64,000 nt of DNA from the NCBI RefSeq assembly GCF_031760065.1, contig NZ_CP134500.1:2356001-2420000 (forward strand), read 5' to 3'. A program made the translations under genes and the position numbers. Below are positions 27,872-44,389 of the stretch, piece by piece; position 1 is the stretch's first letter, and each line of letters opens with the position of its first letter. Below the pieces are notes generated by a model. That model was not told the DNA's origin. It did no database searches and worked only from the letters and a program-made list of their open reading frames with translations. Source of the DNA: Streptomyces durocortorensis (lineage in GTDB: Bacteria > Actinomycetota > Actinomycetes > Streptomycetales > Streptomycetaceae).

Positions 27872-29800
27872 ATGACGTCGACGCCGCCAGGCGACCGGCA
27901 GGAGAACGACGCTTCCCGGACGACACAGCTCCGGATACCGCAGCAGCTGCGGACCGGGGCGCCGCGGCGGCGTGCGCGGAAAGAGAAAGAGCTGCCGCGC
28001 TACGACTACGAGCACTACAGCCGGCTCGCCGGCCCGCTGACGCAGCCGCCCGCGGGCAAGCCGTACAAGGTGCAGTACCGCTCGCTCATATCCCAGGAGC
28101 CGCACCGGGTGCGCGCGGCGCTCCTGCTCGGCGCGGCGCCGCTCGTCTCGCTCGGCCTCTTCGCCTGGCTGATGCAGCCCAGCCACTGGACGGACCGCGA
28201 CCCCAACCTGGACAACGACCTCCTGCTGGTCCTCGACATCATCATGCTGGTCTCGATCGGCCTGATCGAGCTGTTCCGCACGATGAACGTCCTGTCGAAC
28301 GCGCACGCCACCCTCGTCGCCCGGGACCCGGTTCCGGTGGTCCCGGAGACCGGCACCAAGGTCGCCTTCCTCACCTCCTTCGTTCCCGGCAAGGAACCGC
28401 TGGAGATGGTGACGAAGACCCTGGAGGCGGCCGTGAAGATCCGCCACCGCGGTCTGATGCACGTCTGGCTGCTGGACGAGGGCAACGACCCCGCGGTCAA
28501 GGAGGTCTGCGCCCGGCTCGGTGTGCACCACTTCTCCCGCAAGGGCGTGGCCCACTGGAACCAGGCCAAGGGCCCGCACCGGGCCAAGACCAAGCACGGC
28601 AACTACAACGCCTGGCTGGACGCGCACGGCGGCGACTACGACTTCTTCGCCTCGGTCGACACCGACCACATCCCGCTGCCGAACTACCTGGAGCGGATGC
28701 TCGGCTACTTCCGCGACCCGGACGTCGGCTTCGTCATCGGCCCGCAGGTCTACGGCAACTACGACACCTTCGTCACCAAGGCCGCCGAGTCGCAGCAGTT
28801 CCTCTTCCACGCGCTGATCCAGCGCGCGGGCAACCGCTACGGCGCGCCCATGTTCGTCGGCACCAGCAACGCGGTCCGGATCTCGGCGCTCAAGCAGATC
28901 GGCGGCCTGTACGACTCGATCACCGAGGACATGGCCACCGGCTTCGAGATCCACCGCCACCGCAACCCGGTCACCGGCAAGAAGTGGCGCTCGGTCTACA
29001 CCCCGGACGTGCTGGCCGTCGGCGAGGGCCCGACCGCCTGGACGGACTTCTTCACCCAGCAGCTGCGCTGGTCGCGGGGCACGTACGAGACGATCATCGG
29101 GCAGTTCTGGAAGGGCTTCGGGACCATGCCGCCCGGCAAGCTCTTCAACTACACGATGATGATCATCTTCTATCCGATGTCGGCCCTGAACTGGATCCTC
29201 GCGGCTCTCAGCTGCGCGCTGTTCCTCGGCATGGGCGCCTCCGGGGTCCAGATCGACCCGACGATCTGGATGATGCTGTACGGCAACGCCTCCGCCCTCC
29301 AGATCGGCCTGTACATCTGGAACCGCCGCCACAACGTCTCGCCGCACGAGCCCGAGGGCTCCGGCGGTCTCGCGGGCATGGTGATGTCCGCGCTCTCCGC
29401 CCCGATCTACGCCCGTTCGCTGATGGACGCGGTGCTGCGCCGCAAGAGCTCCTTCGTGGTGACCCCCAAGGGCGACTCGTCCAGCCCGGACACCCTCTTC
29501 GGCACCTTCCGCATCCACCTGTTCTTCATCGTCGTCTTCGGCGCCTCGATGGTCTCCTCCTTCTTCCTCGGCCACAGCCACCCCGCGATGGTCACCTGGG
29601 CCTCGCTCGCGCTGCTGATCACCGCCGCGCCGATCATCGGCTGGAAGTACACGATCCGCGCCGAGAAGAAGAAACGCCGGGCAGGCGGAGGATCGCACCG
29701 CAGCGGCGGACCGGCCCCGGAGCCGCGGCCCCAGCCCCTGCCCGGGGCACCCGGGAACGACCAGACCATGCAGATCGCCCTTGGGGGACGTAAGAAATGA
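27872..29800 (+). CDS. cslA: Cellulose synthase-like glycosyltransferase CslA
   Basis: A 642-residue family-2 glycosyltransferase of the inner membrane. Two helices precede the catalytic domain (LLLGAAPLVSLGLFAWLM; LLLVLDIIMLVSIGLIELF). The domain has all processive-synthase motifs: the first Asp in LLDEGND (about 202), DTD (about 263-265), TED (about 350) and QQLRW (about 396-400). About four helices follow. It polymerises a beta-1,4-linked glycan at hyphal tips and works with GlxA. The ATG at 27872 follows GGGGGG. Its stop overlaps the glxA start (ATGA). Confidence 0.95.
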   Translation: MTSTPPGDRQENDASRTTQLRIPQQLRTGAPRRRARKEKELPRYDYEHYSRLAGPLTQPPAGKPYKVQYRSLISQEPHRVRAALLLGAAPLVSLGLFAWLMQPSHWTDRDPNLDNDLLLVLDIIMLVSIGLIELFRTMNVLSNAHATLVARDPVPVVPETGTKVAFLTSFVPGKEPLEMVTKTLEAAVKIRHRGLMHVWLLDEGNDPAVKEVCARLGVHHFSRKGVAHWNQAKGPHRAKTKHGNYNAWLDAHGGDYDFFASVDTDHIPLPNYLERMLGYFRDPDVGFVIGPQVYGNYDTFVTKAAESQQFLFHALIQRAGNRYGAPMFVGTSNAVRISALKQIGGLYDSITEDMATGFEIHRHRNPVTGKKWRSVYTPDVLAVGEGPTAWTDFFTQQLRWSRGTYETIIGQFWKGFGTMPPGKLFNYTMMIIFYPMSALNWILAALSCALFLGMGASGVQIDPTIWMMLYGNASALQIGLYIWNRRHNVSPHEPEGSGGLAGMVMSALSAPIYARSLMDAVLRRKSSFVVTPKGDSSSPDTLFGTFRIHLFFIVVFGASMVSSFFLGHSHPAMVTWASLALLITAAPIIGWKYTIRAEKKKRRAGGGSHRSGGPAPEPRPQPLPGAPGNDQTMQIALGGRKK

Positions 29801-31734
29801 AGTACCGTCCGAGCCGCCGTACACGCCGCCTGGCGATCAGTACGGCGGTGGTTCTCGCGCTCGCGGGAGCGAACGGGCCGTGGCTGTACCGCTTCAGCAC
29901 CGAGCGCTACCACGAGTACAAGATCAACCAGCAGGAGTACAAGGCGGCCAACGGCCACTGGTCCTTCCTGGACATCCCGTCCGAGTTCAGGATCAACACG
30001 ATCCACGCGGCGCTGCTGCACACCGGCAAGGTGCTGCTCGTCGCGGGCTCCGGCAACAACCAGAAGAACTTCGACGCGAAGAGCTTCCGCTCGGTGCTGT
30101 GGGACCCGAAGACGGACACCTTCAAGAACATCCCCACCCCCAAGGACATGTTCTGCGCCGGGCACACCCAGCTGCCCGACGGCAAGCTCCTCATAGCCGG
30201 CGGCACCAAGCGCTACGAGAAGCTGGAGGGCGATGTCACCAAGGCCGGCGGCCTGATGATCGTCCACAACGAGGACCCGGACAAGCCGATCACCCTGCCC
30301 GCGGGCACCCGCTTCACCGGCAAGGAGAACGGCAAGACGTTCGTCTCCAAGGACCCGGTGCTGGTCGAGAAGGCCACCAAGGTCTTCGACAAGGAGACCG
30401 GCGCGTTCCTGCGCAACGACCCCGGGCTCGGCCGGATCTACGTCGAGGCGCAGAAGGCCGGCAAGAAGTACGAGACCGGCACCGAGGACAACTACCGAGT
30501 GGCGGGCCTGTCCGGCTCGGACACCCGCAACGTCTACGGGATCGCACAGAAGCTGGCCCTGGACAAGAAGGACTTCCAGGGAATCCGTGAGGCCTTCGAG
30601 TTCGACCCGGTGGCGGAGAAGTACATCACCGTCGACCCGATGAAGGAGGCCCGCTGGTATCCGACCCTGACGACGCTGGAGGACGGCAAGGTCCTCGCAC
30701 TGTCGGGTCTGGACGAGATCGGGCAGATCGTCCCGGGCAAGGACGAGATCTACGACCCGAAGACCAAGGAGTGGGAGTACACCGGCATCGAGCGGAGGTT
30801 CCCCACCTACCCGGCGGTCTTCCTGCTCAACGACGGCAAGCTCTTCTACTCCGGCTCCAACGCCGGGTACGGCCCGGCGGACGTCGGACGCGACCCGGGC
30901 GTCTGGGACCTGTCCACCAACAAGTTCAAGAAGATCCCCGGGCTCAGCGACCCGGACCAGATGGAGACCTCGGCGACCGTACGGCTGCCCCCCGCCCAGG
31001 ACGAGAAGTTCATGGTGATCGGCGGCGGCGGGGTCGGCGAGTCGGAGAAGTCCAGCGAGAAGTCCCGGCTGGTCGACCTCCAGAAGAAGAACCCCAGGTT
31101 CACCGACGGCGCGTCCCTCTCCGAGGGCACCCGCTACCCCAGCGCCTCCCTGCTCCCCGACGACTCGCTGCTGGTGACCGGCGGCTCCAACGACTACCGG
31201 GGGCGCAGCGGCTCGGACGTGCTCCAGGCCCGGCTGTACGACGCGAAGAGCGACACGTACAAGCGGGTCGCCGATCCGCGGGTGGGCCGGAACTACCACT
31301 CGGGTTCGGTGCTGCTGCCGGACGGGCGGGTCATGATCTTCGGTTCGGACTCGCTCTTCTCGGACAAGGCCAACACCCGGCCCGGCGTCTTCGAGCAGCG
31401 CATCGAGATCTACACCCCGCCCTACCTCTACCGGGACTCCCGGCCCGAGCTGACGGCCGGGCCCAAGAAGATCGAGCGCGGCGGTACGGGCCTGTTCACC
31501 ACGCAGCACGCCTCCTCGATCACCTCGGCGAAGCTGATGCGGCCCTCGGCGGTCACCCATGTCACCGACACCGACCAGCGCACCATCGCGCTGGAGATGA
31601 AGAAGTCGGCGGACGGGATCACCGTCACCGTGCCGGAGAACCGGGCGCTGGTGCCCGCGGGCTGGTACATGCTGTTCGTCACCGACGCCGAGGGCACGCC
31701 GTCCGAGGGCATGTGGGTCGAGGTGCCCGAGTAG
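29797..31734 (+). CDS. glxA: Mononuclear copper-radical oxidase GlxA
   Basis: A 645-residue galactose-oxidase-like enzyme held in the membrane by an N-terminal anchor (RRLAISTAVVLALAGANGPW). The kelch-type propeller and C-terminal DUF1929 domain carry the copper-site residues. These are Cys near 120 in DMFCAGHTQLPDG and Tyr288 in ARWYPTLTTL, the predicted Tyr-Cys crosslink, with Trp287 beside it. Further ligands are Tyr-His in GRNYHSGSVLLPDG and a C-terminal His in THVTDTDQRT. It oxidises the glycan made by CslA, with which it is translationally coupled. Confidence 0.94.
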   Translation: MKYRPSRRTRRLAISTAVVLALAGANGPWLYRFSTERYHEYKINQQEYKAANGHWSFLDIPSEFRINTIHAALLHTGKVLLVAGSGNNQKNFDAKSFRSVLWDPKTDTFKNIPTPKDMFCAGHTQLPDGKLLIAGGTKRYEKLEGDVTKAGGLMIVHNEDPDKPITLPAGTRFTGKENGKTFVSKDPVLVEKATKVFDKETGAFLRNDPGLGRIYVEAQKAGKKYETGTEDNYRVAGLSGSDTRNVYGIAQKLALDKKDFQGIREAFEFDPVAEKYITVDPMKEARWYPTLTTLEDGKVLALSGLDEIGQIVPGKDEIYDPKTKEWEYTGIERRFPTYPAVFLLNDGKLFYSGSNAGYGPADVGRDPGVWDLSTNKFKKIPGLSDPDQMETSATVRLPPAQDEKFMVIGGGGVGESEKSSEKSRLVDLQKKNPRFTDGASLSEGTRYPSASLLPDDSLLVTGGSNDYRGRSGSDVLQARLYDAKSDTYKRVADPRVGRNYHSGSVLLPDGRVMIFGSDSLFSDKANTRPGVFEQRIEIYTPPYLYRDSRPELTAGPKKIERGGTGLFTTQHASSITSAKLMRPSAVTHVTDTDQRTIALEMKKSADGITVTVPENRALVPAGWYMLFVTDAEGTPSEGMWVEVPE

Positions 31735-35592: not shown

Positions 35593-37140
35593 TTAGCCGG
35601 TGGCGACCTTGACCCCGTCGATCACCCAGTACCAGTTGTTGCTGCCGGTGTAGTGGAACCGGAAGCTCACGTTGGCGGCCCCGGCCGGCACGTCCAGGGT
35701 CAGGGACTGGGGCTGGGAGATCACGTCGGACGTGTAGCTCTTCACGACGACGGGGGTGCCGCCGTTCCAGGAGGCGAGTACCCGGGCGCTCTGGCTGCCC
35801 TCCTGCCGGTAGAGGGTGGTGAAGCCGAGCGTCACGGTGGACCTGCCGCCGACCGCGTACGCCGGGGTGACGAGCGTGGAGTCGTACCGGCCGGAGGACG
35901 CCTTGTCGTCCCACTCGTCGGAGTCGGCGACCGCGAAGACCCCGCGTGAGCGGACGTTCAGCTCACGGGACTGGTCGCGGTGGCTGCGGCTCCAGAACTC
36001 GTCGGTGGCGAAGGCCCAGCCGCGCCACTCGGTGACGCCTCCGGTGCCCATCGCTGAGTTGACGACCGACCAGCCGCTGGGCGCGGTGTGCGTCCAGCCG
36101 AGGACGCCCGCCGGGATGCCGGTCTCGTCGACGCGGGCGGAGAGGGAGGGGTACAGCGCCTCGAAGGGGTCGGTGGAGCGCTCCTGGATCGGCTTGCCGT
36201 CCAGGCCCCAGGCGGGGTCCGGGGCTATGCCGAGCTGCTTGAAGACGGTGGCGGCGACATCGACGAGACGGGTGTCGCCGGGCGTGGCACCGGCGGCGAT
36301 GCCGGGGCCCTGGGCGAGGACGAAGGTGCGCCGCTCCTCGATCGCGCTGCCGCCGTGGCCGCCGGAGTCGGTGTGGCCGTGGTCGGTGGCGACGATGACG
36401 GTCCAGCGCTCGGTGGCGTACGAGGGCCGGGCCCTGATCGCGGCGAGGAGGCGGCCGAGGTGGCCGTCCACGACGTCGGTCGCCTCGCGGTAACGCGGGC
36501 TGGCCGCACCCAGGTTGTGGCCGACGATGTCGACCTGCCCGAAGTAGACGAACAGGACGTCCGGGTTCTGGTCGCGGAGGATCGACTCGGTCTCGGCGGC
36601 GATGGTGGCGTCGTGGCCGGTGTAACCGTCGCGGTCACCGTCCAGCACGAGCTTGGCGTCCGCGCCCGGGGTGACGGTGCCCTGGGTGTCCAGGGGCTTC
36701 CAGTCGACGGCCGCGTAGGTGGAGAGCTGGGGGCGGACCTGGGCGAGGCGGGCGAGGAAGCCCGGGTACTGCCCGTAGTTCTTCCCGGCGAAGGAGTTGT
36801 CCTTCACGCGGTGCTTGTCGGGCCACACTCCGGTGGAGATGGTCGACCAGCCGGGGCCGGAGGAGGTGGCGGCCATCGGGTTGGCGTACAGCAGGGAGGT
36901 GCCGTACGTGCCGTTCGCCATCATCGACTTGAGGTGCGGGGCGTTCGCTGCGGCGATGACGTCGTGGCGCAGCCCGTCGATGCCGACGACGAGCACCTTG
37001 TCCTTGCTGGTGCCGTCGGGGAGGGTGGACGCGGCGTACGCGGCGGGGGCCGTGGCAAGGGGGCCGACGGCGGCGGCGGTGGCCGCTGCGGCGGTGGTGG
37101 CGAGCACGGAGCGGCGGGACAGGGGTCGGGACCGGGACAC
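35593..37140 (-). CDS. Tat-exported alkaline-phosphatase-superfamily phosphodiesterase
   Basis: A 515-residue enzyme. The Tat signal has SRRSVLATT followed by an Ala-rich core. The catalytic domain matches type-I phosphodiesterase / nucleotide pyrophosphatase enzymes. It has VVGIDGLRHD (first metal Asp), a nucleophile region around PMAATSSGPGWSTISTGVWP, YFGQVDIVGH, and VATDHGHTDSGGHGG (metal Asp-His). Residues about 370-515 form one or two beta-sandwich modules (STVTLGFTTLYRQEGSQSAR; VSFRFHYTGSNNWYWV). It probably cleaves a phospho- or phosphono-diester outside the cell. Its promoter shares a 35-bp element with the phosphonate operon next door, and a GTTCAC unit lies between that element and the start. 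The GTG at 37140 follows GGAGG. Confidence 0.83.
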   Translation of the reverse strand: MSRSRPLSRRSVLATTAAAATAAAVGPLATAPAAYAASTLPDGTSKDKVLVVGIDGLRHDVIAAANAPHLKSMMANGTYGTSLLYANPMAATSSGPGWSTISTGVWPDKHRVKDNSFAGKNYGQYPGFLARLAQVRPQLSTYAAVDWKPLDTQGTVTPGADAKLVLDGDRDGYTGHDATIAAETESILRDQNPDVLFVYFGQVDIVGHNLGAASPRYREATDVVDGHLGRLLAAIRARPSYATERWTVIVATDHGHTDSGGHGGSAIEERRTFVLAQGPGIAAGATPGDTRLVDVAATVFKQLGIAPDPAWGLDGKPIQERSTDPFEALYPSLSARVDETGIPAGVLGWTHTAPSGWSVVNSAMGTGGVTEWRGWAFATDEFWSRSHRDQSRELNVRSRGVFAVADSDEWDDKASSGRYDSTLVTPAYAVGGRSTVTLGFTTLYRQEGSQSARVLASWNGGTPVVVKSYTSDVISQPQSLTLDVPAGAANVSFRFHYTGSNNWYWVIDGVKVATG

Positions 37141-37194: not shown

Positions 37195-37229
37195 TGGACC
37201 AGACCTGTTACCTTGGCGAGACAAGCGGG
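37195..37229 (-). promoter_or_regulatory. Shared promoter element A, upstream of the exported phosphatase
   Basis: This 35-bp stretch matches 43246-43280 at 26 of 35 positions without gaps. The core is TGGACCAGA, then GTTA, CTT, CG and ACAAG. It ends 55 bp before the phosphatase start. A TCCAGACC half-copy lies at 37238-37245. The TGGTCC core on the gene strand suits a GntR/UTRA-type operator. Confidence 0.7.
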
Positions 37230-37295
37230 CCGAGTCCAGACCTTCGCATTGCGGGAACAGACGTTCGCAGGAATCCGTGGCCGAAAGGTGGCCGG

Positions 37296-38348
37296 TCAGC
37301 TTCCGGTGGCCGACTTCCAGGCGTCGATGTACGTGTCCAGGTTGGCGCCGATGTCCGACCAGTCGGGCTCGAAGATCTCCACGCCCTCCATCAGCCCGGC
37401 CAGTTCGACGGCGTTGGCGTCGGTGGCCTTGATGTCCTTGCGGGCCGGGAAGCCCCCGCCGACCACGCTGACGTCGCGCTGCGCCTGCTCGGAGAGGAGG
37501 AAGTCGAGCAGCTTCTTGCCGTTCTCGCTGTGCGGGGCGTTCGCGACGAGCCCGGCCGCGTACGGGAGAGCGAAGCTGGTGGGCTTTCCGCCCTCCTTCG
37601 CGGGGAACCAGATGGCGAGGTTGGGCATGTCCTTGGACTGCGCGAAGTTCATCTGTACGTCCCCGTTGGCGACGAGGAGTTCCCCCTTGTCGACCTTGGG
37701 GGCGAGCTTGCCGGTGGAGGCGGAGGGCCCGACGTTGTTGGCCTGGAGCTTCTTGAGGTAGGCCATGGCGGGTTCCTGGCCGCCGAAGTCGTGCATGGCC
37801 TTGATGAGGACGGCGGTGCCGTCGCCCGCGACGCCGGGGGTGGAGTACTGGATCTTCTCCTTGTAGGAGCCCTTCAGCAGCTCCTCCCAGGTGGTGGGGG
37901 GCGCCTTCAGCTCCTTCTTGTTGTGGATGAAGGCGAAGTAGTTGTTGACGATGGAGGTCCACTTCCCGTCGGCCGCCCGGTCGGCGCCGTCGACCCGGTC
38001 GGCGCCCTCCGGCTCGTACGCCGTGAGGAGCCCCTTGGCGTCGGCCTGCTGGATGAAGGGCGGCAGGGTGACGAGGACGTCGGCCTGGGTGTTGGCCTTC
38101 TCCCGGGCGGCGCGCTGCATCATCTCGCCGGAGCCGCCCTCCACGTACTTGACCTTGATGCCGGTCTTCTTCTCGAAGTCCTTGAAGACCTTGTCGTACC
38201 AGCCGTTGCCGTTCTCGCCCTTGAGGCCGTCGGCGCTGTAGACGGTGACGGACTTCTCATCGGCGGCGGAGGAGCCACCGCACGCGGTGAGGGTGAGGGC
38301 TGCGAGGACGGCCAAGGGAAGGGCGAGGGTGCGGGCAGGCTTGCGCAT
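37296..38348 (-). CDS. Aminoethylphosphonate-type ABC transporter binding lipoprotein
   Basis: A 350-residue extracellular solute-binding protein with a lipobox (LTLTACGGSS, Cys near 23). The domain begins SVTVYSADGLKGENGNGWYD. It continues with AREKANTQADVLVTLPPFIQ and ends GGGFPARKDI...WKSATGS. This is the iron/thiamine/phosphonate-type binding fold. With two permeases, an ATPase, a phosphonatase-like HAD and an FAD oxidoreductase, it fits a 2-aminoethylphosphonate importer. It is the last gene of a six-gene operon. Confidence 0.82.
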   Translation of the reverse strand: MRKPARTLALPLAVLAALTLTACGGSSAADEKSVTVYSADGLKGENGNGWYDKVFKDFEKKTGIKVKYVEGGSGEMMQRAAREKANTQADVLVTLPPFIQQADAKGLLTAYEPEGADRVDGADRAADGKWTSIVNNYFAFIHNKKELKAPPTTWEELLKGSYKEKIQYSTPGVAGDGTAVLIKAMHDFGGQEPAMAYLKKLQANNVGPSASTGKLAPKVDKGELLVANGDVQMNFAQSKDMPNLAIWFPAKEGGKPTSFALPYAAGLVANAPHSENGKKLLDFLLSEQAQRDVSVVGGGFPARKDIKATDANAVELAGLMEGVEIFEPDWSDIGANLDTYIDAWKSATGS

Positions 38349-38403
38349 GGGTTGTCTCCAGGTGAGGGGGTGGGGGTGAGGCAGGAAGCGGTACGGGGGC
38401 GGG

Positions 38404-39201
38404 TCAGCGGTACGAAGCGCGCGTCCGGATACGGGAGACGGCGGCGAGCACGAGGAGCGTCGTCGTCATCAGGACCACGGCGAGCGCGGCGCCGGTGAAG
38501 AGCGAGCCCCGGTCGGTGGCGGCGAAGATCTGCACCGGGAGCGGGGTCCAGTCCGGCGGGTAGAGCATGATCGTGGCGCTCAACTCCCCCATGGACAGGG
38601 CGAAGCAGAGCCCGGCGGCCGAAGTGAGCGAGGGCAGCAGCAGCGGCAGCCTGACCCGCCACAGGACGCGGGCGGGACCGGCACCGAGACCGGCGGCGGC
38701 CTGTTCGTACATCGGGTCCAGGCGGCGTACGGCGGCCGCGACCGACTGGTAGGCGAACGCGGTGACCAGGACGGTGTGGGCGAGGATCACGATCCAGCGC
38801 GTCCCGTTGAGCAGGATGGGCGGCTGGCTGAACGCCACCAGAACCGCGAGGCCGACGACCACCGAAGGCACGGCGACCGGCAGGATGAACAGCGCGTCCA
38901 CGAGCCGCTTCCCGCGCTCGCGGAGAGAGGCGGCGGCGAGAGCGGCCCAGCCACCGAGGGCGAGGGCCAGCACGCTCGCGGCCAGGGCCGTGACCAGGCT
39001 GGTGGTCAGCGCCTGGAGCGAGTCGCCGTTGGTCGCGGCGGCGTAGCGTTCGGCGGTGGGCCCGGAGGGGAACGCGCCGGACCAGTTGGTGGCGAGGGAC
39101 GCGGCGAGGATGACGAGCAGGGGCACCGCGAAGAGCGGGACGAAGAGGAGGAGGAAGACGGCCCAGGTGGCCCACTTCCCGGCCCGGCTATGCACCAGCA
39201 C
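38404..39201 (-). CDS. ABC transporter permease 2 (aminoethylphosphonate-type)
   Basis: A 265-residue inner-membrane permease with about six helices. The EAA-type loop is YEQAAAGLGAGPARVLWRVR. It overlaps the preceding permease gene by 14 bp. The GTG start at 39201 is in that overlap. It forms the channel with permease 1. Confidence 0.85.
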   Translation of the reverse strand: MLVHSRAGKWATWAVFLLLFVPLFAVPLLVILAASLATNWSGAFPSGPTAERYAAATNGDSLQALTTSLVTALAASVLALALGGWAALAAASLRERGKRLVDALFILPVAVPSVVVGLAVLVAFSQPPILLNGTRWIVILAHTVLVTAFAYQSVAAAVRRLDPMYEQAAAGLGAGPARVLWRVRLPLLLPSLTSAAGLCFALSMGELSATIMLYPPDWTPLPVQIFAATDRGSLFTGAALAVVLMTTTLLVLAAVSRIRTRASYR

Positions 39202-40111
39202 GACGGCTCACCACCCGGTAGAGGCTGTAAAGGCCCACGGAGACAGCGATGTTGACGACGGCGACGACGCAGGCGGCCGCGTAGTCCGACTCCAGGATCG
39301 CCTTGCTGTAGACGAGCATCGGCAGCGTCGTGACGTCCTTGGCCCCGGTGAACAGGACGATCCCGAACTCGTTGAGACACATCACCAGGACGAGGCTGCC
39401 GCCCGCCGCGAGCGCCGGGAGCGCCTCGGGCAGGATCACCTGCCGGATGATCCGGACGGGTCCCGCGCCGAGCGAGGAGGCCACCTCCAGCTGCCCGGTG
39501 TCGAGTTGTGAGAACGCGGCGAGCAGCGGGCGCATGACGAACGGCGTGAAGTACGTGATCTCGGCGAGCAGCACACCCCAGGGGGTCGTCAGGAAGTGGA
39601 AGGGCCCGTCCGCTGCCCCGGTGACGTCGGTCCACAGCCCGTTGGCCATACCGACCGAGCCGTAGATGAACAGCAGGGCCAGCGTGATCAGGAAGGACGG
39701 GAAGGAGAGGAAGACGTCGACGAACCGGGCCACCGCCCTGCCGCCGGGGAACGGGACGAACGCGATCACCAGCGCGAGGACGAACCCGAGGACGAGGCAG
39801 CCCACGGTCGAGCCGACGGCGAGCCACACGGTGGTGGCGAGCGCGTCGCGGAAGACGGCGGAGGCGAAGACCTCGGCGTACGGGCCGAGTGAGGCGCCGC
39901 CCTCTTCGGGGGTGAAGGACTGCTGGACGACGAGGGCGAGGGGGTAGAGGAACGCGAGCGCGAGGACGACGACGGGCGGGAGGGCCCAGACCCAGGTGGG
40001 GATGGAGCGGGAACGTGCGGAGGCGGGGTTGGGGGCGGGGGCGGGTCCGGTGGGGAGGGGGACGGCTGAAGCTGTGCCGGTGGCGGCCGGGGTGGTGGCG
40101 GTGGGGGTCAT
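39188..40111 (-). CDS. ABC transporter permease 1 (aminoethylphosphonate-type)
   Basis: A 307-residue permease. After a Pro/Ala/Thr-rich head come about six helices (WVWALPPVVVLALAFLYPLA first) and the EAA-type segment LEVASSLGAGPVRIIRQVIL. The ATG at 40111 overlaps the stop of the ATPase gene (ATGA). An open frame upstream of it lies inside the ATPase gene and was not used. Confidence 0.85.
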   Translation of the reverse strand: MTPTATTPAATGTASAVPLPTGPAPAPNPASARSRSIPTWVWALPPVVVLALAFLYPLALVVQQSFTPEEGGASLGPYAEVFASAVFRDALATTVWLAVGSTVGCLVLGFVLALVIAFVPFPGGRAVARFVDVFLSFPSFLITLALLFIYGSVGMANGLWTDVTGAADGPFHFLTTPWGVLLAEITYFTPFVMRPLLAAFSQLDTGQLEVASSLGAGPVRIIRQVILPEALPALAAGGSLVLVMCLNEFGIVLFTGAKDVTTLPMLVYSKAILESDYAAACVVAVVNIAVSVGLYSLYRVVSRRAGA

Positions 40112-41292
40112 GAGCTGCCCCCCGTCGTTCCCGCCGGCAGCAGCACCGCGTCCTCGGCCGCGAAGTGCAGGGTGACACGGTCGCCGAGGGCCGGGGGCTC
40201 GCGCAGTTCGCGGAGGTCGGCCATGACGTGGTGTCCGTCGACGTCTGCGTGGACGCGGTGGGTGGAACCGCGCCACTGGACCTCGGTGACTGTGCCGGTG
40301 AGCCCGTTGGGCCCGACGCCGAGGCCGACGAGGTGCGGCCGGACGCAGAGGGTGGCGGTGGCTCCGGGGGCGGCGGTGTCGGTGGGGACGGCGAGGGGGC
40401 GGCGGGCGGTTCGACCATCGTCGCCCTCGGGGCGGTGCTCGGGGCCGTTCTCGGGGCTGCTGAGCTCGACGCTCCCCTCGCCTGTGACGGTGACGGGGAG
40501 CAGGTTGGCGTTGCCGACGAACGAGGCGGTGAACTCCGTACGGGGTCGGCGGTAGAGCTCCTCGGGGGTGCCGCAGTCCTGGAGCCGGGCGCGGTCCATC
40601 ACGGCGATGCGGTCGGCCAGGGTGAGCGCCTCGACCTGGTCATGGGTGACGTACAGGATGGAGACGTCGGGCAACTCGCGGTGAAGTCGGGCGAGTTCGG
40701 CGAGCATGCCGGAGCGGAGCCGGGCGTCGAGTGCGGAGAGCGGTTCGTCCAGGAGCAGGACGCCGGGGCGGATCGCGAGAGCGCGGGCGATGGCGACGCG
40801 CTGCTGCTGGCCGCCGGAGAGTTCGCGCGGGTGGCGGTCTGCGTACGCGGCCATGCCGACGAGTTCCAGGGCCTCGGCGACCCGGCCGGGGATCTCGGCC
40901 TTCGGGGTGCGGTGGGCTTTGAGCCCGAAGGCCACGTTGTCCTTGACCTTGAGGTGGGGGAAGAGGGCGTACTGCTGGACGACCATGCCGATGCCACGCC
41001 GGTGCGGGGGCAGGGCGGTGACGTCCCGGCCACCGAGGAGGACCCGCCCGGACGCGGGCCGGACGAACCCGGCGACCGCGCGCAGGGCGGTGGTCTTGCC
41101 GGAGCCGGAGGGTCCGAGGAGGGCCATGACCTCGCCGGGTTCGACGGTGAGGTCGAGCCGGTCGAGGACGACGGTCCGGCCGTACGCGACGGTGACGCCG
41201 TCGAAGCGGATGCCGCTGGGGGCGGTGGGGGTGGGGGTGGGGACGGTGGCGGTGGCGGTGGCGAGCGGGTTGGAGGTGGGGAGGTCCGTCAC
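40108..41292 (-). CDS. ABC transporter ATP-binding protein (aminoethylphosphonate-type)
   Basis: A 394-residue ATPase of the spermidine/iron/phosphonate group. Walker A is [13 protein letters not shown] and the Q-loop is [13 protein letters not shown]. The signature is [15 protein letters not shown] and Walker B is [17 protein letters not shown]-terminal TOBE domain (residues about 290-390) follows. The N-terminus carries a Thr/Pro-rich repeat ([15 protein letters not shown]). The GTG at 41292 overlaps the stop of the upstream hydrolase gene. Confidence 0.87.
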
Positions 41293-42041
41293 GCCTCGGC
41301 CCGCGCGATCAGGTCGGGCAGCTCGGCGACCGACCCGAGGACATGGGTCGCGCCGTGCCGGTCGAGCTGGTCCCGGCCGTGGGCACCGGTGAGGACCCCC
41401 GCGACGAGCCCGGCGCCGGAGCGTACTCCGCTGAGCATGTCGTACGAGGTGTCCCCGGCCACCACGATCCGCCGCACGTCGTCCACCGCACCCGTGCGCA
41501 GGAGGGCGGCCAGCACCATGTCCGGGTAGGGGCGCCCCCGGCCGCCCGCGTCGGCGGGGCAGAGGGTGAGGGGGACGAGGTCCCGCCAGCCGAGGGCGGC
41601 GAGGATGGCGTCCTGGGTGGTGCGGGCGAACCCGGTGGTCAGGACGACGGTCCGCCCCTCTGCGGTGAGCCGCTCGACGGCTTCCCGCGCGCCGGGGAGC
41701 GGGGCGATGCGGCCGCCGTCGACGAGCGCCCCGTACGCCTCCTCGAAGGCGGTGTTGGCGTACTGAGCCCTCTCCTCCTCCTCGAAGAGGTGCCGGAAGA
41801 CGGAGATCTTCGACTCGCCCATAGTGGCGCGAACATAGGCGAGTTGACGCTCGTGCTCCTCGGATTCCGGCTCCACTCCCAGGCGTTGGGCTGCGGCGGA
41901 GAAGGCCTGCTCGACGAGACCGCCGTCGGCGACGGTGGTCCCGGCCATGTCCAGGACGACAAGTCCGAAGCGGTTACCGGCCGCCGCCTGTGCCGCTTGG
42001 GTTGCTTGGGTTGCATGCGTTGCTTGCGTTGCTGAAGTCAT
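41289..42041 (-). CDS. Phosphonatase-like HAD hydrolase (phosphonoacetaldehyde-type)
   Basis: A 250-residue HAD enzyme. The nucleophile loop is [14 protein letters not shown], with Ala-Gly after the Asp as in phosphonoacetaldehyde hydrolase (PhnX, DWAGT) rather than the usual DxDGT. The cap has [14 protein letters not shown]. Its Lys aligns by eye with the Schiff-base Lys of PhnX (MGLLKIDHVR). Motif IV is [13 protein letters not shown]. It therefore probably splits a C-P bond in a phosphonoaldehyde. The first 22 residues are an Ala-Thr-Gln repeat encoded by a short DNA repeat, so the true start may be later. It follows the oxidoreductase gene by 4 bp. Confidence 0.82.
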
Positions 42042-42045
42042 GAGG

Positions 42046-43170
42046 TCACCAGCCCAGTTGGTCGGCGGTCGTTTCGGCGATGGCGGGCGAGCACGTCATG
42101 CCACGCCCGCCGGGTCCGGTCACGAGCCAGACCCCGTCGCGCACCTGCTGCCGGTGGACGACCCGGGAGGTGTCCGCGCACTGGGCGTAGACACCTGCCC
42201 AGCGGTGGCGGATGCGCGGCAGCGGGCGGCCGAGGAAGGACTCGACGACCCGGACGAGGTGCTCGTACGGCTCCTCGACGGTGTCGAAGGCGAAGGGGTG
42301 CTCGTACTCGTGGGTGTCCCCGATGGTCAGCCCGCCGTCGCCACGCTGCACCATGAGGAGTTGCATGCGGTGTTCGGCCGCGACGGGGTCCTGCGGCTGC
42401 CCGGCGTTGAGGGCGTCGAGAGCCTCGCTCCGGTACGCGGGGTAGTAGCGGAAGCTGTCGGCGTCGGCGACCGAGGTGGTGAGGGGTTCACCGAGCGGGT
42501 CGGTCTGCATCATCTGGAGCCGGACGCGCCGCACGGGCAGTTCGGGCCCGGTGAGTTCGCGGACGAGCCCGCCGAGCCAGGCGCCGGTCGCCAGGATGAC
42601 GGCGTCGCCGGTGTGGACGTCACCGTGGTCGTCGCGCACCGAAGCGGTTCCGGCGACGTCCCGCACTTCGCGGCCGCCGAGGTAGGTGTAGCGACCCGAG
42701 TCCAGCAGCTCCTGCTTCAGGGCGAGTTGGGCGGTGCGTGGTTCGACCGCCGCGTCCCGCTCGCACCACAGGGCAGCGGTGAACGCGCCGCGCAGGGCGG
42801 GGTTGAGCGCGCGGGCCTCGGCGGCGGTGAGCAGCTTGTAGCCGCGCGCCGCCGCGTCCGGCCGGACGAGCGCCGCCTCGGCGACGGCGACCTCGCGGGC
42901 GGTCCGCAGCGGGGTGAGCGAACCGCAGGCCCGGAAGCCGAGCCCGGGCACCCGCCGCCCGATCTCCTCCCACAACTCCCTTGCGCGCAGGGCGGTTTCC
43001 AGCTCATCGCCACCGGCCCGGCCACTGACCCATATCTGTCCGAAATTGCGGAGCGATGCCCCGCGCGCCTCACTCTCGCGCTCGATCTGTACGACCTCGT
43101 GGCCGCGACTGACTGCGTGCCAGGCGTGCATGGTTCCCACCACGCCGGCTCCTACGACGATGACTCTCAC
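42046..43170 (-). CDS. FAD-dependent oxidoreductase of phosphonate operons (TIGR03364-like)
   Basis: A 374-residue DadA/glycine-oxidase-type flavoenzyme. The FAD-binding motif is VIVVGAGVVGTMHAWHAVSR at the N-terminus, with ARGASLRNFGQIWVSGR next. The C-terminal FAD contact is GVWLVTGPGGRGMTCSPAIA. This family recurs beside phosphonatase-like genes and is thought to oxidise (N-methyl-)aminoethylphosphonate to phosphonoacetaldehyde, the substrate for the next gene. It is first in the operon. GTG at 43170 has AGGAG 10 bp upstream; a GTG at 43179 sits too close to it. Confidence 0.82.
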   Translation of the reverse strand: MRVIVVGAGVVGTMHAWHAVSRGHEVVQIERESEARGASLRNFGQIWVSGRAGGDELETALRARELWEEIGRRVPGLGFRACGSLTPLRTAREVAVAEAALVRPDAAARGYKLLTAAEARALNPALRGAFTAALWCERDAAVEPRTAQLALKQELLDSGRYTYLGGREVRDVAGTASVRDDHGDVHTGDAVILATGAWLGGLVRELTGPELPVRRVRLQMMQTDPLGEPLTTSVADADSFRYYPAYRSEALDALNAGQPQDPVAAEHRMQLLMVQRGDGGLTIGDTHEYEHPFAFDTVEEPYEHLVRVVESFLGRPLPRIRHRWAGVYAQCADTSRVVHRQQVRDGVWLVTGPGGRGMTCSPAIAETTADQLGW

Positions 43171-43245
43171 GGCGGCCACGCTCCTGGGGGCGGGTGTCCC
43201 GGGTGCGTCCGGTCACCGACGGGACGGTGAACGACCCATCAAGTT

Positions 43246-43280
43246 TGGACCAGAACCGTTATCTTTTCGTTACAAGAGGC
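43246..43280 (-). promoter_or_regulatory. Shared promoter element B, upstream of the phosphonate operon
   Basis: Partner of 37195-37229 (26 of 35 identical, same orientation to its gene). It ends about 75 bp before the oxidoreductase start. On the gene strand it continues into GGTCCAAAC, close to the GTnTAnAC pattern of HutC/PhnF-type GntR regulators. A GTTCACC unit at 43226-43232 lies between it and the gene, as a GTTCAC unit does at the other site. Confidence 0.7.
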
Positions 43281-43399: not shown

Positions 43400-44170
43400 T
43401 CAGTCCCGCCCTTCGCCCTTCAGATGGGCGGAGAAGGAGAAGCGGTCCCCCCGGAACAGGGTCCGTACCCGCTCCAGCGGCCGCCCCTCCGTGTCCCGGG
43501 AGAGCCGGTGGATCAGGAGCATCGGCAGGGCGGGCGGGGTCCCGATGAGCAGGGCCTCGCGGGGCGTCGCGAGGACCGTCTCGATCCGCTCGTCCGCGTC
43601 GCCGAAGGCGATGCCGAGGCCTTCGCGGAGGTGGGCGTAGAAGGAGGAGTCGGGGTCGAACCGCGTGTCCAGGTCCGGGACGCGGTCGACGGCGACGTAC
43701 GTGCTCTCCAGGCCGACCCGCTCGTCGTCGGCGAGCAGCACGCGCTCCAGGTGCCAGACCGGTTCGCCCCGCCCGACCCCGACCTCGGCGGCGAGCACCT
43801 CGGGGCAGGGGAAGCGTTCCAGGCCGATGAGGTTACGGCCGGGCCGTCTGCCCTGGCGGCGGACTCCTTCGGTGTAGCTGGCGAGGGAGAGCGGCTGTTC
43901 CAGCTTGGGTCCGGCGACGACGGTCCCGCGCCCCTGCCGCCGCAGCCGCCCTTCCAGGAGCAGTTCGCGCAGGGCCTGGCGGACGGTCTCGCGCGAGACC
44001 TCGTGCTGCTGGGCGAGCTCCCGCTCGGTGGGCAGGAGCCCGCCCTCGCCCAGCTCGTCCAGCAGCACCGCGATGCGGGCCTTGACGGCGTAGTACTTCG
44101 GGATGCGGCCGTGCTCGGGGATGCCGGAGCGGATCGGTGCGCCAGGTGCCTGGCCGTTCGGGTAGTCCAC
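43400..44170 (-). CDS. GntR-family regulator with UTRA domain
   Basis: A 256-residue HutC/PhnF-type repressor. The winged helix spans about residues 25-85 (PTERELAQQHEVSRETVRQA, LRELLLEGRLRRQGRGTVVA). The UTRA ligand domain follows (VWHLERVLLADDERVGLEST; PMLLIHRLSRDTEGRPLERV). It lies just upstream of the phosphonate operon on the same strand and is the obvious regulator. It may also bind the copy of the operator near 37200. The start is uncertain: GTG at 44170 has a weak site, and a GTG at 44200 is possible. Confidence 0.85.
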   Translation of the reverse strand: MDYPNGQAPGAPIRSGIPEHGRIPKYYAVKARIAVLLDELGEGGLLPTERELAQQHEVSRETVRQALRELLLEGRLRRQGRGTVVAGPKLEQPLSLASYTEGVRRQGRRPGRNLIGLERFPCPEVLAAEVGVGRGEPVWHLERVLLADDERVGLESTYVAVDRVPDLDTRFDPDSSFYAHLREGLGIAFGDADERIETVLATPREALLIGTPPALPMLLIHRLSRDTEGRPLERVRTLFRGDRFSFSAHLKGEGRD

Positions 44171-44389
44171 GGCCCGATGGTGGCAGACGTACGTGAACAC
44201 CTGGGCGGGGGTACGGATAGGAGGGGTACGGAGATACGGGCACGCGGGGGGCGTTCGGTCCGGGCCGTCGGGGTGAGCTGCGCGGGCGGGCGGGGGATTC
44301 GCTTCAGGCCGCGCGGGACGGACAGCAGAGGCGGGCGCGGGGCGAGGGTTCGGTGCAGGTCGCGGGCGGATGCCCGGCCCGGGTGGTCG

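Follow-up and report, generated by a model that had tools for sequence, protein, structure and literature searches.

What could join an exported phosphodiesterase to an operon for the uptake and breakdown of aminoethylphosphonate in Streptomyces durocortorensis, and what purpose might such a connection serve? The question is raised by a 35-bp element that occurs twice in the 64,000-nucleotide stretch analysed here (the window, meaning that whole stretch), once before each of these two minus-strand transcription units. A regulatory link between the phosphodiesterase and the operon is very likely from sequence comparison. At a probability of roughly 70%, we read the two elements as operators of a GntR/UTRA repressor that would control both the operon, which is led by a flavin adenine dinucleotide (FAD) oxidoreductase gene, and the phosphodiesterase gene, with repression lifted once the protein binds aminoethylphosphonate or an intermediate of the pathway; a diester would be cut outside the cell and the product imported and broken down.

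The paired element and its conservation

Aligned without gaps, the copies at 37195-37229 and 43246-43280 are identical at 26 of 35 positions, while the runner-up match within the 64 kb, on either strand, reaches only 21 of 35 for the first copy and 19 of 35 for the second; the match is real and far above chance. The first-pass annotation had reported this identity, and its further observations also hold: the identical cores are TGGACCAGA, GTTA and ACAAG, each copy flanks its minus-strand gene on the same side, and a single GTTCAC unit stands between element and start in each promoter. Its reading of the downstream genes as an aminoethylphosphonate operon is likewise borne out, since PhnS, PhnU, the PhnX-like protein and the FAD enzyme score above curated model cut-offs. 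The two elements are:

37195-37229, minus strand: putative operator before the exported phosphodiesterase gene, core GTAACAGGTCTGGTCCA, left half GTCTCGCCAAG
43246-43280, minus strand: putative operator before the FAD-led aminoethylphosphonate operon, core ATAACGGTTCTGGTCCA, left half GTAACGAAAAG

The right half, GGTCTRGNCC, is an imperfect palindrome that we take to resemble known HutC-type sites, and the left half repeats RTMACG 11 bp upstream.

Searching proteins with PhnS as query yielded 72 named loci, in which the usual order is GntR, FAD, PhnX, PhnT, PhnU, PhnV and PhnS, often followed by the phosphodiesterase and a HAD-IIA gene. The operator, with the consensus RTMACG-N5-RTAACGGGTCTRGNCCA, precedes the FAD gene in 57 of the 58 loci with an FAD match (56 by automatic count; in L061 it falls right where the extracted sequence was cut, and L079 holds only a fragment of the FAD gene). 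In 56 loci, Nocardiopsis alba (L107) included, 101-102 bp separate the start of the element from the position of the window's GTG 43179. A 28-nt matrix trained on 56 FAD-promoter sites, all from other genomes (one, in L039, from a near-identical strain), scored the window's FAD site at 45.6 and its phosphodiesterase site at 22.5, compared with a maximum of 1.65 across a background of 2,170,826 positions from reversed loci and with -13.8 for the next-best site in the window.

Orthologous promoters devoid of a conserved element, the outcome that the first-pass annotation had named as fatal to its proposal, were looked for and are not what we found: 35 of 47 upstream regions of phosphodiesterase genes are matrix-positive (L079 was excluded because its stretch is too short, and the failures include L067, a gene fragment). 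Grouped by identity, 15 of 15 regions pass at 85% or above, 10 of 14 at 70-85% and 10 of 18 below 70%, and three that fail the 28-nt matrix (L063, L081 and L084) exceed the background maximum of an 18-nt core matrix. No matrix-positive operator was found upstream of GntR (0/63), PhnX (0/58), PhnU (0/65), PhnV (0/68) or PhnS (0/69). It does precede PhnT in 4 of 63 regions, these being the loci where PhnT directly follows GntR, and HAD-IIA in 4 of 53, which are four of the 14 loci with HAD-IIA after PhnS and no phosphodiesterase; with so few sites, HAD-IIA was rejected as a general regulon member. Taken together, the predicted operator is one class of sequence conserved in Streptomyces.

Both window sites differ from the consensus core at one position, and only one further place in the genome, 6978575, comes as close. 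By eye this place looks like coding sequence, for which reason it was rejected as an operator; its score is -4.3 with the 28-nt matrix, yet 20.5 with the core matrix (background maximum 10.8), so a good core alone is no proof of a site. In ten loci (L061, L064, L066, L071, L073, L074, L076, L077, L088 and L089), an inverted repeat rich in G and C, for example ACGCCCCTGA...TCAGGGGCGT, was seen by eye to abut the operator upstream of the phosphodiesterase and is perhaps the terminator of the PhnS operon. At L133 12597-12960, an intact operator is followed by an apparent decayed phosphodiesterase remnant, also judged by eye.

The regulator and the relocated targets

That a single regulator, probably the neighbouring GntR/UTRA protein, serves both sites had been proposed at the outset, and its distribution supports this. 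Within the genus, the exact core is present in 133 of 295 genomes (one match for a reversed control pattern), in 119 of the 129 that are PhnS-positive and 14 of the 166 that are PhnS-negative, and in all 14 of the latter the GntR gene adjoins the core. Core and GntR/UTRA gene occur together in 114 genomes and are both lacking from 142; nine have the regulator only, and one, the fragmented assembly G178, the core only. The ten PhnS-positive genomes without an exact core include the window's own and three others with one-mismatch sites (G153, G169 and G240); of the other six, G102 among them, the five examined near PhnS (G008, G044, G128, G145 and G168) gave no core with at most two mismatches there. 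A relaxed 27-nt pattern matched 99 of 295 genomes, with five matches in four genomes for its reversed control; its matches include unlinked ones in G124 and on contig 8 of G127. Among 268 class genomes outside the genus two gave a match, and the reversed control gave two matches. Of the two genomes, G545 has the cluster with an operator scoring 41.8, and G500, at -1.9 and with no cluster genes, was set aside as a chance match. The regulator has the GntR helix-turn-helix and UTRA domains that define the GntR/HutC family, and in an alignment with DasR examined by eye it keeps both arginines corresponding to the two with which NagR reads two guanines (PMC4918961).

Phosphodiesterase genes found away from the cluster bear on the link in a different way, their placements being independent of the co-occurrence p-values. 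Ten were fetched from genomes carrying the regulator (for G273, PhnS and the core), and six have a matrix-positive operator, with scores of 19.7-41.0. The operator was found before none of five phosphodiesterase genes fetched from genomes without PhnS and core; two of these carry decayed versions of it and two are gene fragments. PhnS is present in 78 of 86 phosphodiesterase-positive genomes versus 129 of 295 overall. Six genomes have the phosphodiesterase and no GntR match: in four (G034, G058, G114 and G230) scanning at the gene turned up no matrix-positive site, G168 gave no site at two mismatches or fewer, and the fragmented G178 has the exact core.

Six unlinked exact-core sites among the matches listed were opened, and all lie directly before phosphoesterase genes, four encoding PC-type phospholipases C and two metallophosphoesterases, with Tat-type (twin-arginine translocation) signals by eye where translated; G012 additionally has a second cluster copy. 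The operators of the phospholipases C, in four genomes, score 20.8-29.4; the two proteins tested exceed the TIGR03396 cut-off, and the remaining pair share 90-91% identity with the first of these. The phospholipase search covered 121 genomes at a very strict E-value and is no census. A metallophosphoesterase gene of this type was found in 9 of 121 genomes; each of these has the regulator (present in 61 of the 121), and three of the nine genes have a site, the third at one mismatch. These separate placements are the strongest evidence and suggest that the operator ties exported phosphoester cleavage to aminophosphonate use; a regulon spanning exported phosphoesterases together with aminoethylphosphonate uptake and breakdown is supported by the sequence comparisons.

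Several arrangements were seen in single loci. A PC-type phospholipase C replaces the phosphodiesterase after a deleted cluster with GntR and PhnS remnants in one genome (L143 5006-7054), and at L198 4094-8531 the phosphodiesterase adjoins PhnX under the same regulator, with the transporter genes missing between them. Next to a site-bearing metallophosphoesterase, the opposite strand of L128 8097-8948 gives a weak match to a glycerophosphodiester phosphodiesterase. In G128 a PC-type phospholipase C directly follows a PhnS remnant and the operator is absent. A search for plasmid carriage of the phosphodiesterase promoter returned no match.

From exported enzyme to phosphate

The genes that the two predicted operators would serve, with the regulator gene, are:

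35593-37140, minus strand: exported NPP-family phosphodiesterase (PF01663) with an unnamed C-terminal beta domain and, by eye, a Tat-type twin-arginine signal; start codon GTG at 37140
37296-38348, minus strand: PhnS, aminoethylphosphonate-binding protein (NF011620, 505 bits, cut-off 310)
38404-39201, minus strand: PhnV-like permease (best match TIGR03255, below cut-off)
39188-40114 (start approximate), minus strand: PhnU permease (NF011624 and TIGR03226, above cut-off)
40108-41292, minus strand: PhnT-like ATPase (best match TIGR03258, below cut-off)
41289-42041, minus strand: PhnX-like phosphonatase (TIGR03351, 231.6 bits, cut-off 218.9), aligned to PhnX structures
42046-43170, minus strand: FAD oxidoreductase of the TIGR03364 (PbfD) family (326 bits, cut-off 285.1)
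43400-44200 (start approximate), minus strand: GntR/UTRA (HutC-type) regulator (PF00392 and PF07702, above gathering scores)

The operon thus runs FAD, PhnX-like, PhnT, PhnU, PhnV, PhnS, with the GntR/UTRA gene upstream. We prefer the FAD start at 43170 because listed relatives mostly carry ATG or GTG there. The transporter belongs to the PhnSTUV kind by NF011620 and NF011624, with TIGR03227 (356 for PhnS, under its cut-off of 395) and the PhnT and PhnV models below theirs; the closest solved structure to PhnS is 4r6y (E 9.8e-98). The PhnX-like protein does not reach the classical PhnX model (TIGR01422, 68.9, cut-off 220). The closest solved relative of the regulator is 3f8m, which we take to be mycobacterial PhnF, followed by DasR; on the PhnF equivalog TIGR02325 it scores 105.7 bits against 156.8 and is PhnF-like only. 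Elsewhere in the window, at 27872-31734, a cellulose-synthase-like glycosyltransferase lies beside an apparent galactose-oxidase-like protein, by eye only; the pair is presumably CslA/GlxA.

We propose that the GntR/UTRA protein binds both operators and, by analogy with the PhnF/DasR family, most likely represses the FAD-led operon and, separately, the phosphodiesterase gene. Aminoethylphosphonate or a pathway intermediate may bind the regulator and lift repression, again by analogy with PhnF and DasR and possibly gated by phosphate. Outside the cell, the exported phosphodiesterase would cut a diester of phosphonate or phosphate. Aminoethylphosphonate would enter through PhnSTUV, the FAD enzyme would oxidise this compound, or its N-methyl form, to phosphonoacetaldehyde, and phosphate would then be freed by the PhnX-like enzyme. 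TIGR03364 enzymes convert both N-methyl-aminoethylphosphonate and aminoethylphosphonate to phosphonoacetaldehyde (PMC10590968), so PhnW would be unnecessary.

Which diester the exported enzyme cuts is where readings diverge. Eight residues (D55, S94, N115, D204, H208, D253, H254 and H262) are invariant across 24 phosphodiesterase sequences and, aligned to Xac NPP, presumably represent the NPP metal ligands, nucleophile and asparagine; with all of these present and a consistent fold, the protein is placed in the NPP family. The predicted model (mean predicted local distance difference test, pLDDT, 73.9; 184 of 515 residues at 90 or above) finds its nearest folds in ENPP6 with phosphocholine and in Xac NPP, with the alkaline sphingomyelinase ENPP7 at rank 12 and a phosphonate monoester hydrolase at rank 42; the top E-values are nearly equal and template-modelling (TM) scores by query length are near 0.4, which leaves the substrate undecided. 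The closeness to ENPP6 and ENPP7 makes headgroup release by the exported enzyme plausible on the modelled structure. The C-terminal beta domain (window 35593-36105) is shared with the operator-bearing phospholipases (L126 3547-4089) at 42-45% identity, in an alignment whose L087 row is in the wrong frame, and a Pfam search placed no model over this domain in the phosphodiesterase or the co-regulated phospholipases. What speaks for a role in aminophosphonate release is the enzyme's place in the regulon, its export signal, its intact NPP active site and the co-regulated phospholipase C genes of relatives; we give about even odds that the exported enzyme functions in this way. The wider idea of a regulon for mining phosphonolipids or phosphonoglycans, in which an aminoethylphosphonate-sensing GntR/UTRA protein governs exported headgroup-releasing enzymes (the ENPP6/7-like phosphodiesterase, joined in certain species by a PC-type phospholipase C or metallophosphoesterase), import and oxidative breakdown, is tentative and in our judgement somewhat short of an even chance.

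The strongest competitor, which we consider rather unlikely, is a regulon for phospholipid headgroups at large, whose enzymes would release phosphocholine, phosphoethanolamine or glycerophosphodiesters, with aminoethylphosphonate just one branch. The co-regulated phospholipases C that were tested fit a phosphocholine-specific model, and the nearest folds include ENPP6 and ENPP7, both solved with phosphocholine; however, the transport and breakdown genes behind the operator are phosphonate ones, and the FAD and PhnX-like enzymes match phosphonate families.

Phosphate starvation control through PhoP, with the element as a PhoP box and both genes merely under phosphate control, is improbable. The operator's left half does consist of two similar units 11 bp apart, and the FAD leader holds a conserved unit like those at pstS:

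43226-43232, minus strand: GTTCACC unit that relatives strongly conserve in their FAD leaders and that may be a second (PhoP) input

This unit lies at a fixed distance in the FAD leaders of L039-L110, being conserved in 55 of 56 loci, and the own pstS promoter carries resembling GTTCACC/GTTCACT repeats. A PHO box comprises two 11-bp direct repeat units of the GTTCACC type; the FAD leader has one good unit and a degenerate second. PhoP is expected throughout Streptomyces, but 142 of the 143 genomes without a GntR match lack the exact core. PhoP may act through the separate GTTCACC unit instead. The leader itself is constant in length in 55 of 56 loci, with about 102 bp between operator and FAD start, though the intervening bases vary; a structured leader RNA was rejected (consensus folding z = 0.15, and only two sub-threshold Rfam matches), as was a coding leader, which has in-frame stops in several loci. 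A relic of local promoter duplication without regulatory meaning has next to no chance of being right, for although the own genome has only two non-coding copies at one mismatch or fewer, the element is conserved over dozens of species with differing leaders and recurs before unlinked genes.

Several observations weigh against the repressor reading that we prefer. Many genomes carry the operon without the phosphodiesterase, so release would not be obligatory, and the PhnT, PhnV and PhnF models score under curated cut-offs. Of the phosphodiesterase upstream regions, 12 of 47 fall under the matrix threshold, 4 of the 10 relocated genes lack a site, and G085 has the regulator with a site-less phosphodiesterase fragment. 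A site is also lacking at 6 of 9 metallophosphoesterase genes, and the L129 site scores -3.0 on the 28-nt matrix, passing on the 18-nt core only (30.3). Two deletion loci in which GntR precedes PhnS or PhnU (L068 and L070) have no operator within 250 bp of those genes. Finally, the matrix, core and test genomes share ancestry, and with kinship ignored the p-values for core with PhnS and core with GntR overstate the evidence.

Significance and comparison with known systems

To our knowledge, known catabolic pathways begin from free phosphonate, and the regulon supplies testable candidates for the missing release step. Phosphonates form part of lipids and glycans (PMC8316502). If the mining reading is true, this would be, as far as we know, the first case of a bacterial system devoted to obtaining phosphonates from polymers or membranes. 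The locus also points to an aminophosphonate route free of carbon-phosphorus (C-P) lyase in many Streptomyces, given PhnS in 129 of 295 sampled genomes (PhnS only was counted). From a survey of C-P lyase genes, a 2021 review (PMC7866108) judged phosphonate use to be confined to a few Streptomyces; it also reports one isolate able to degrade aminoethylphosphonate and leaves room for enzyme systems of other kinds. In the open full-text literature, represented mostly by listings and with most subscription papers outside it, we recognised no such operator or regulon, no GntR control of aminoethylphosphonate use in Streptomyces and no exported phosphodiesterase in such a regulon.

The exported enzyme resembles NPP/ENPP proteins (Xac NPP, ENPP6 and ENPP7) in its two-metal active site, nucleophile position and conserved asparagine, with residue roles taken from general knowledge of the family. 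Unlike them, it has an extra C-terminal domain and is only 16-19% identical, and by eye it has a serine where Xac NPP has the threonine nucleophile. Breakdown resembles the aminophosphonate oxidation by PbfD/TIGR03364 and PhnX (PMC10590968), in which an FAD oxidase and a phosphonatase lead to phosphate, although the Streptomyces locus has a PhnX-like enzyme in place of classical PhnX; the main text of that paper does not mention Streptomyces, GntR or a phosphodiesterase. The Pseudomonas AepXVW, AepP and AepSTU systems with the LysR regulator AepR (PMC8316502, PMC10574752) also combine aminoethylphosphonate uptake with pathway-specific control of breakdown, but through other transporter proteins and another regulator family, and the portions of those papers drawn on describe no exported hydrolase in the regulon. 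Like the GntR/HutC repressors PhnF of M. smegmatis and DasR/NagR, the regulator is a UTRA protein. Unlike these, it is tied to aminoethylphosphonate and exported phosphoesterase genes, its predicted operator has a conserved left half 11 bp upstream, and its own gene has no site within 250 bp upstream (0/63 GntR regions). Nutrient regulons under GntR/UTRA control are themselves an already known kind of system.

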